A stretch of DNA of 64,000 bases from Arthrobacter humicola (GTDB lineage: Bacteria > Actinomycetota > Actinomycetes > Actinomycetales > Micrococcaceae). Of this stretch, positions 7,503-32,214 are shown piece after piece. Both the position numbers and the translations under genes were made by a program. How positions within the stretch are numbered: position 1 is the stretch's first letter; each line of letters opens with the position of its first letter. Location: contig NZ_JAFKON010000010.1 of NCBI RefSeq assembly GCF_022803015.1, forward strand, positions 1 to 64,000. Direction: 5' to 3'. The notes under the pieces are model-generated. The model saw only the letters and a program-made list of their open reading frames with translations, had not been told where the DNA came from and searched no databases.

Positions 7503-7539
7503 AAGCGGACGACGGCGGGAGTCCCGCCGTCGTCCGCTT
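7503..7539. terminator. Terminator hairpin, copy of dispersed palindrome family 1
   Basis: Perfect 17-base arms (AAGCGGACGACGGCGGG and its complement) around AGT, then TTGT. It lies 19 bases after the glycine-tract gene. The arm sequence recurs at 3216, 11308 and 32186. Confidence 0.8.
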
Positions 7540-11288: not shown

Positions 11289-11307
11289 TCCGCGGGCTTT
11301 AACGCCA

Positions 11308-11345
11308 AACGACGACGGCGGGAGGTGGCTCCCGCCGTCGTCGTT
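11308..11345. terminator. Bidirectional terminator hairpin, copy of palindrome family 1
   Basis: Perfect 17-base arms (AACGACGACGGCGGGAG and complement) around GTGG, between the GGDEF remnant and the convergent small ORF at 11371. Same core as the copies at 3216, 7503 and 32186. Confidence 0.8.
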
Positions 11346-11370
11346 CGGCCTTGCTGCCTGGAACCCGGGC

Positions 11371-31197: not shown

Positions 31198-31226
31198 TTG
31201 ACACGCCCGAGCAGTCGGACTATCCT
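31198..31226 (+). promoter_or_regulatory. Promoter of the ArsR-SRPBCC unit, leaderless
   Basis: TTGACA at 31198-31203, 17-base spacer, TATCCT at 31221-31226. Transcription would begin about 31233-31235, at or next to the ATG at 31235, so the message is probably leaderless. Confidence 0.7.
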
Positions 31227-31244
31227 ACAACCAAATGGTTGTAG
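31225..31244. promoter_or_regulatory. ArsR operator overlapping start codon
   Basis: CTACAACCAAATGGTTGTAG: perfect 8-base arms around AAAT, covering the -10 end, the transcription start and the ATG at 31235. Binding would block polymerase; the 12-2-12-like shape fits ArsR dimers. Confidence 0.75.
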
Positions 31245-31654
31245 ATCAGCTCCGAACCCAGCTCAGCGACGACGAACTCGACCGCCTTTTCCAGGCGTTC
31301 GCCGACGCGACCCGCAGGGACATCGTGCGCCGGGTGACGGTGGGCGAGTACTCGGTCTCCGGGCTCGCTGCCCTCTACGCCATGAGTTTTGCGGCCGTCC
31401 AGAAGCATGTGGCGGTGCTGGAACGCGCTTCCCTTGTCTCGAAGGAGAAGCGGGGAAGGGAGCAGATCGTGCGGGCCAACCATGACGGCCTGCAGCGGGC
31501 CCGCCGCCTGCTGGACGACTACGAGGTCATTTGGCGCCAGCGCGCCGACCGGATTGCGGACCTGCTGGCCGAATCGGCCGCCCCGGAACCTGGCGAGACG
31601 CAGGCAGGCGCCAGAACAACGAATAAATCGCAAGGCCAAGCTGAAGGAAACTGA
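31235..31654 (+). CDS. ArsR-family transcriptional regulator
   Basis: 139 residues. The winged-helix DNA-binding region covers about residues 15-85: LFQAFADATRRDIVRRVTVGE, SVSGLAALYAMSFAAVQKHV and LERASLVSKEKRGREQIV. No cysteine metal site is seen, so it is the metal-free type often paired with an SRPBCC protein. The gene begins inside its own operator and 31673 follows after 18 bases, so both are one transcript. Probably an autorepressor responding to the pocket ligand. Confidence 0.9.
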   Translation: MVVDQLRTQLSDDELDRLFQAFADATRRDIVRRVTVGEYSVSGLAALYAMSFAAVQKHVAVLERASLVSKEKRGREQIVRANHDGLQRARRLLDDYEVIWRQRADRIADLLAESAAPEPGETQAGARTTNKSQGQAEGN

Positions 31655-31672: not shown

Positions 31673-32170
31673 ATGACGGTTGTCAGTTCAGTCAAGAATC
31701 TTGAGGCGCTGAGCCTCACCGTGGTCGCCGAGTTTGATGCCGGAGTTGGGCGCGTCTGGCAAATCTGGGAAGACCCGCGCCAGCTCGAGCGCTGGTGGGG
31801 GCCGCCCACGTGGCCGGCCACCTTCGAAAAGCACGAGTTCGTCCCGGGCGGCGAGGCCAGCTACTACATGACGGGACCCGAGGGGGAGAAAGCCCGCGGC
31901 TGGTGGCGGTTCGTGACCATCAACGCCCCGCACCGGCTGGAGTTCGATGATGGCTTCGCGGACGACAACGGCGACCCCGTGGCCGACATGGGCACGATCC
32001 ATGGAGTTGTGACACTGGAGCCAATCGGCGACCGCACCCGAATGACCATCATGTCCACGTTCGAGGCGGAGGAGCAGATGGAGAAGATCGTCGCCATGGG
32101 CATGGAAGAAGGCATGAGGGAGGCGCTGGGCCAGGTCGACGCGATCATCGCCGAGTCCGTCAACGCTTGA
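31673..32170 (+). CDS. SRPBCC-family (AHSA1-like) protein paired with ArsR
   Basis: 165 residues. Landmarks of the fold: LTVVAEFDAGVGRVWQIWED, RWWGPPTWPATFEKHEF (the WWGPP motif of the AHSA1 subgroup), SYYMTGPEGEKARGWW, TRMTIMSTFEAEEQME and a last helix GMREALGQVDAIIAE. It likely binds or transforms a small hydrophobic compound. A family-1 hairpin follows the stop. Co-transcribed with the ArsR gene, which makes a ligand-sensing pair plausible. Confidence 0.9.
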   Translation: MTVVSSVKNLEALSLTVVAEFDAGVGRVWQIWEDPRQLERWWGPPTWPATFEKHEFVPGGEASYYMTGPEGEKARGWWRFVTINAPHRLEFDDGFADDNGDPVADMGTIHGVVTLEPIGDRTRMTIMSTFEAEEQMEKIVAMGMEEGMREALGQVDAIIAESVNA

Positions 32171-32185
32171 CCTGCAACGCAACAC

Positions 32186-32214
32186 GACGACGGCGGGAAT
32201 CTCCCGCCGTCGTC
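32186..32214. terminator. Terminator hairpin, copy of palindrome family 1
   Basis: Perfect 13-base arms GACGACGGCGGGA / TCCCGCCGTCGTC around ATC, 15 bases after the SRPBCC stop and before the next gene. Confidence 0.8.

Follow-up and report, generated by a model that had tools for sequence, protein, structure and literature searches.

A conserved operator-like inverted repeat centred on the start codon of an ArsR-type regulator gene from Arthrobacter humicola: evidence for a putative autorepressor site within a predicted leaderless promoter

Arthrobacter humicola is a soil bacterium, and a 64,000-nt stretch of its genome (the whole stretch of DNA analysed, hereafter the window) carries a gene for an ArsR-type regulator whose start codon lies inside an inverted repeat. 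The question raised by this locus is whether the first codons of the regulator are at the same time part of the DNA site through which its own gene is controlled, as was proposed in a first-pass annotation, and, if so, whether the protein or the DNA site has determined the first residues. The elements at the gene start are as follows.

31198..31203, + strand: -35 hexamer TTGACA (sequence and promoter scan)
31221..31226, + strand: -10 hexamer TATCCT (sequence and promoter scan; TAnnnT conserved in 81/81)
31225..31244, unstranded: proposed operator CTACAACCA-AA-TGGTTGTAG (repeat, conservation, axis test, covariation)
31235..31244, + strand: coding half of the proposed operator, ATG GTT GTA plus the first base of codon 4, reading Met-Val-Val (GTT-GTA in 75/80)

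The series TTGACA, 17 bases, TATCCT that the first-pass annotation had placed ahead of the ATG is indeed present, with a -35 to -10 spacer of 17 nt and 8 nt between the -10 hexamer and the ATG at 31235. A promoter scan of 801 nt found one site of the TTGACA-17-TATCCT type in comparison to a shuffle mean of 0.1, and the TGA within the -35 TTGACA forms an in-frame stop 12 codons 5' of the ATG. The description of the repeat as a perfect 20-base palindrome has to be corrected to a 9+2+9 inverted repeat, with 9-bp arms and a 2-nt AA centre, which is 18/20 symmetric and has its dyad axis between the A of the ATG and the base preceding it. The further statement that the palindrome covers the entire arrangement stands in part: the repeat spans the last two -10 bases, the expected start site and the coding sequence from the ATG through codon 3 to the first base of codon 4, while the -35 and most of the -10 are outside it.

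No second match to the repeat with up to 3 mismatches was found in the 64-kb window, and none in 100 shuffles. The length of the inverted repeat alone was dropped as evidence, because the window contains several hairpins that are GC-rich and have arms of 9-18, some of them longer-armed than the repeat; what is unusual about the repeat is its position and its conservation, the arm length by itself not being rare in the window. Across the 4.7-Mb genome, AACCANNTGGTT occurs at three places (control 0), namely the ArsR start, a terminator-like stem and one stretch without a visible ArsR gene, and a dyad of this type was found at none of the nine other ArsR-type genes examined in the genome, for which the best in-frame-start score was 5/8.

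The regulator gene, its downstream neighbour and the hairpin after them are the following.

31235..31654, + strand: ArsR-type winged-helix regulator, 139 aa, cysteine-free (NF033788, fold model)
31673..32170, + strand: SRPBCC/AHSA1-domain protein, 165 aa (Pfam AHSA1, 7e-21)
32186..32214, unstranded: 13-bp hairpin after the SRPBCC gene, with no T run (putative operon end)

The regulator scored 58.1 bits against NCBIfam NF033788, above the cut-off of 55, and 20.4 bits against Pfam HTH_5, under the cut-off of 22. Its structure model had a mean pLDDT of 85.9, the best Foldseek matches of the model were the ArsR-type structures SrnR 7p6f, 3f6o and 2oqg, and the solved structure nearest by sequence was 7r22 (Mab3862, E 6e-28). 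By profile (NF033788) and by fold (Foldseek) the protein is a member of the ArsR/SmtB winged-helix regulators, and with ArsR-type profile and structure matches it falls outside the TetR family of the AcuR-type leaderless autorepressors. The cysteine-based metal site of metal-sensing ArsR proteins is lacking, the regulator having no Cys; Cys is also absent from 66/80 of its close relatives (the best 80 of at least 520), and the NCBIfam label 'metalloregulator' is probably wrong for the cysteine-free members of the family. An SRPBCC homologue is located 3' of the regulator, on the same strand and within 200 nt, in 80/80 of these relatives (again the best 80 of at least 520), and the SRPBCC gene is probably co-transcribed with the ArsR gene. 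The hairpin at 32186-32214 is a possible end of the operon. As a separate observation, the hairpins at 7503-7539, 11301-11352 and 32186-32214 of the window have ACGACGGCGGGA...TCCCGCCGTCGT in common; the full pattern occurs at four genome places, three of them in the 64-kb window, and its 12-mer has 17 window matches at up to 1 mismatch in comparison to 1.4 expected.

The close relatives were collected by a contig scan with six peptides, residues 1-5 being excluded, and the best 80 of at least 520 were kept. They include Arthrobacter, Rhodococcus, Streptomyces, Glycomyces, Nocardiopsis, Cellulomonas and an acidimicrobiian MAG, and among the matches listed the nearest relatives of the locus are Arthrobacter. 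One contig, labelled Sporosarcina beigongshangi (L034), has an Arthrobacter-like copy that is 71% identical and probably represents contamination. The check set beforehand, nucleotide-level conservation of the first codons and of the palindrome in orthologues, did not refute the proposal, the palindrome being kept in 80/80 of these relatives (the best 80 of at least 520): AACCnnATGGTTG occurs exactly once, at the gene start and no further than 80 nt from the match start, in 80/80, and the repeat and the TAnnnT box are at the same position in 80/80. With the window included, T-14, A-13, T-9, C-7, A-6, A-5, C-4, C-3, the ATG and GTTG are invariant in 81/81; conservation in the 81 sequences is far lower in the -35/-10 spacer and beyond codon 6.

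Codon 2 is GTT in 80/80 close relatives and codon 3 is GTA in 75, GCA in 4 and GTG in 1, in comparison to 59 GTT (7.7%) and 44 GTA (5.7%) among the 770 Val codons in the rest of the same 80 genes. The third base of codon 4 is A or T in 80/80, in comparison to 80% G+C at third positions. A variable-length linker ahead of the conserved D16 separates Met-Val-Val from the fold, and the model has a mean pLDDT of 52 over residues 1-10, followed by 89 and 98. The aligned sequences thus far support conservation of codons 2-3 at the DNA rather than the protein level. The opposite explanation is that Met-Val-Val is kept for the sake of the protein, for instance its stability or leaderless translation, with the symmetry as a by-product; it would account for M1 and V2 being nearly invariant in the protein alignment, and a 5' end of AUG-GUU-GUA might suit leaderless initiation. 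What has been conserved, however, are rare synonymous codons, and the invariance of the coding bases is equalled by that of seven non-coding ones (T-9, C-7 to C-3 and others).

The position of the promoter elements bears on where the transcript begins. The T, A and T of TAnnnT are found at -14 to -9 in 81/81, and because this box ends 8 nt ahead of the ATG, the left half of the repeat would be promoter and not RNA. A -35 with at least 4/6 of TTGACA is placed at -39 to -36 in 61/81, the remaining 20 having TTGC there, and a Shine-Dalgarno-like string is present in 5/80 close relatives and absent in 75/80. Going upstream in frame, the first stop is reached at codon -12, within the -35, in 38/80; at some other close-relative loci there are alternative in-frame starts upstream of the operator-centred ATG. 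In 9/9 plasmid relatives that have an annotated regulator and pass the on-start test described below, the annotation places the start at the operator-centred ATG. From the -10 spacing, the transcription start is predicted at the A of the ATG at 31235 or at most 1-2 nt from it, and leaderless transcription of the ArsR gene appears likely, considering this spacing and the scarcity of Shine-Dalgarno-like sites. The two arms are complementary and, if both were transcribed, would enclose the start codon, which might suggest an RNA hairpin that controls translation with no protein site involved. With this promoter, however, the left arm would not be in the RNA because it overlaps the -10 box in 81/81; L106, L107 and L111 have the motif between the -35 and the -10, where it cannot be RNA of that transcript, and the 2-nt centre is too short for a loop unless inner pairs open. 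Control by an RNA hairpin is hardly credible on these grounds.

A wider set of 75 relatives consisted of 29 loci from 296 Actinomycetota genomes (in which 47 had a match at E<=1e-15), the first 20 of 30 other matches, and 26 plasmid relatives hand-picked for variety. L091, whose DNA is identical to that of L080, and L089, from the same genus, were excluded, which reduced the set from 75 to 73 and the on-start loci from 38 to 36. A locus passed the on-start test when the axis was at an in-frame start codon and at least 5/6 of the pairs k=3-8 were complementary. The results showed the dyad axis on an in-frame start codon in 36/73 relatives, with 37/73 failing the test; the 40 remaining offsets between -20 and +20 gave counts of 0-14, the top ones being -4 (14), -12 (11) and -16 (9). 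In the set of 75, the on-start codons were 35 ATG, 2 TTG and 1 GTG. Among the relatives with the dyad on the start are Chroococcidiopsis, Nostoc, Azospirillum, Gemmatirosa, Niveispirillum, Caballeronia, Sinorhizobium meliloti and haloarchaea.

An AACC-N4-GGTT-like site (up to 1 mismatch) was found off the start, within a range of about 100 nt, in 26/73 more, and by the scan within about 100 nt either the site or a start was missing in 11/73. L115 and L120, which were classed as 'elsewhere', do show a dyad on the start codon, though an imperfect one. The start-codon-centred, strongly conserved operator-like site is real, and the question becomes which protein uses it. It could be the operator of another regulator, with the ArsR protein acting elsewhere, and further ArsR targets are conceivable in that Rv2034 is reported to act also on dosR (PMC3338718). 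Such an assignment is unlikely, however, given that AACCANNTGGTT has only the three genome places described above and that AACC-N4-GGTT-like sites accompany the protein family in 62/73 loci in comparison to 2/52 for control stretches of equal length in the distant upstream DNA, 300-420 nt upstream.

If the two halves form one site, changes in the coding half should be matched in the non-coding half. For covariation, 42/73 loci were chosen on pairs k=3-6 alone. Complementary pairs (n=42) numbered 31, 36, 30, 26 and 29 at k=7, 8, 9, 10 and 12, in comparison to shuffled means of 17.1, 19.4, 16.1, 11.4 and 19.5, and the observed number was reached by 0/2000 shuffles at each of these positions; the shuffle test ignores relatedness, and related sequences inflate its result. 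Three or four pair types were seen at k=7, 9 and 10. At k=11, 13 and 14 there was no excess covariation, with 463, 1837 and 494 of 2000 shuffles reaching the observed number (n=42). A tree of 81 rows was built without codons 1-5; neither the doubtful or chance picks L152, L153, L169 and L170 nor further copies of an identical 28-mer entered the tree, but they stayed in the shuffle test. The tree test gave 1-5 independent supported pairs per position. At k=5-9 the partner changed the same way in 0.4-1.7 of these, in comparison to 0.0 for the opposite way; the two values were 1.3 and 0.3-0.8 at k=10 and 12, and 0.0-0.4 and 0.2-1.0 for displaced controls; tree-based covariation over the 81 rows was significant at no position, its power being too low.

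Individual loci illustrate these changes. The half-sites are altered in Gemmatirosa (GTAAACCATATGGTTTAC, Tyr3), Niveispirillum (TAGCCGTATGGCTA, Ala2), L108 (TATAACC-AG-ATGGTTATA, Ile3), L168 (TTAAGCATATGCTTGA, Leu2) and L174 (GTTAACCCGATGGTTAAC, Asn3), while L171 has the version TCAAGCGTGTGCTTGA with a GTG start, and where the protein here starts with MVV, those elsewhere in the family start with MVE, MVD, MVI, MVY, MVN, MA or ML. The claim that the first codons lie inside the regulator's own operator, which remains a predicted one, gains support from the retained rare Val codons and from the covariation of the halves across phyla.

Loci in which the site has moved or broken offer a further comparison, although some of the genomes are draft or MAG assemblies and single-base errors are therefore possible in them. 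L100 has kept ACAACCATAAGGTTGT with AAG in place of ATG. In L102 the whole motif is kept and reads MVV-stop, and therefore the gene start must be downstream. In the actinobacterial L106, L107 and L111 the motif is between TTGACA and the -10, L118 has a weaker copy at the same distance, and the proteins of all four start otherwise than with MVV. In Hymenobacter, AACCAGTCGGTT is upstream and the start about 20-30 nt further on. Where the site has shifted or the ATG is lost, the DNA motif persists and the MVV start vanishes (L100, L102, L106, L107, L111). For the explanation in which Met-Val-Val serves the protein, the pairing of coding changes with non-coding ones and the different N-termini of relatives with a moved operator are further points against it, which make it very unlikely. 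The RNA hairpin, the operator of another regulator and the protein-only constraint were all rejected on the evidence given with each.

We consider it highly probable that at 31225-31244 an autorepressor operator is merged with the start codon and the leaderless promoter of the ArsR-SRPBCC operon, a reading that builds on the observed sequence, position, conservation, codon bias, covariation and operon partner. Binding, repression, start site and inducer belong to its inferred layer. RNA polymerase on TTGACA-17-TATCCT would begin transcription with the A of the ATG or immediately beside it, and the gene would be leaderless; an ArsR dimer on the dyad would occupy codons 1-4 and the start site as well as the downstream edge of the -10, and in this position would block open-complex formation at the arsR-SRPBCC operon until a signal, probably not a metal, released the repressor. 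We infer that the regulator binds its own predicted operator as a dimer from the symmetric, conserved and covarying site. Since its right half-site doubles as codons 2-4, the operator would dictate the first residues of the protein.

Among known systems, AcuR is the closest in logic and Rv2034 the closest in family, as far as the cited accounts describe them. AcuR of Rhodobacter sphaeroides (acuR-acuI-dddL) is reported to be leaderless at the AUG by 5' RACE, in an arrangement said to recur in diverse lineages (PMC3017554). Similar to the locus here, for which the leaderless reading is a prediction, it is an autoregulated operon whose first gene encodes the repressor, with an inverted repeat overlapping the promoter; it differs in that AcuR is of the TetR family with acrylate as known inducer, and that its operator TAATAGAC-n6-GTCTATTA, as given there, overlaps the promoter upstream of the ATG and does not have the start codon at its centre (PMC3017554). 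Rv2034 of Mycobacterium tuberculosis is described as an ArsR-type autorepressor with no metal response in the authors' tests, a footprint of -30 to +3 about the start codon and an 8-4-8 inverted repeat near the start (PMC3338718). The regulator here is likewise of ArsR type with an inverted repeat near the start, and is presumed to be autorepressing; the reported Rv2034 operator CCGTAAGT-CTAA-ACTTACGG is different in sequence and upstream of the start codon, and Rv2034 activates other genes too (PMC3338718). The start of Mab3862 of Mycobacterium abscessus (7r22, the closest solved sequence relative), MATDADEDKADAMFH, seems to resemble that of relatives with the operator in the promoter spacer. 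CvkR of Anabaena, lambda cI and Tn1721 tetR are repressors made from leaderless mRNA; they belong to other families, and the part of that paper drawn on here does not state a start-codon-centred operator (PMC9938897). Leaderless autorepressors are thus already known, while an operator dyad that has the start codon of an ArsR gene at its centre and fixes codons 2-4 was not found in the open-licence literature searched.

It is fairly probable that an ancient ArsR-SRPBCC family, spread over several bacterial phyla and haloarchaea, has the AACC-N4-GGTT axis on its own start codon, that the N-terminal residues coevolve with the non-coding half read by the protein's own DNA-binding domain, and that an upstream slip of the site frees these residues. 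The family would provide a clear case of first residues fixed by a regulatory DNA site and not by protein function, with the moved-operator relatives as natural controls. The signature, AACC-N4-GGTT on the ATG together with rare Val codons, predicts operator, start codon and leaderless transcription, and is applicable to a large, little-studied regulator family labelled 'metalloregulator'.

Some of the wider relatives have additional features near the start. In L113, L116, L136, L145, L152 and L179 two AACC-N4-GGTT-like sites are exactly 16 nt apart, a spacing which suggests two adjacent dimers. In L112 and L179 the operator-like site is upstream of a leadered start, with an SD-like GGAGG inside or adjoining it. 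The haloarchaeal plasmids L125, L146 and L148 have the site on the ATG and a second AACC/AACT-N4-GGTT about 35-41 nt upstream, at the expected archaeal TATA/BRE region, and a less regular copy of this second site is found in L147.
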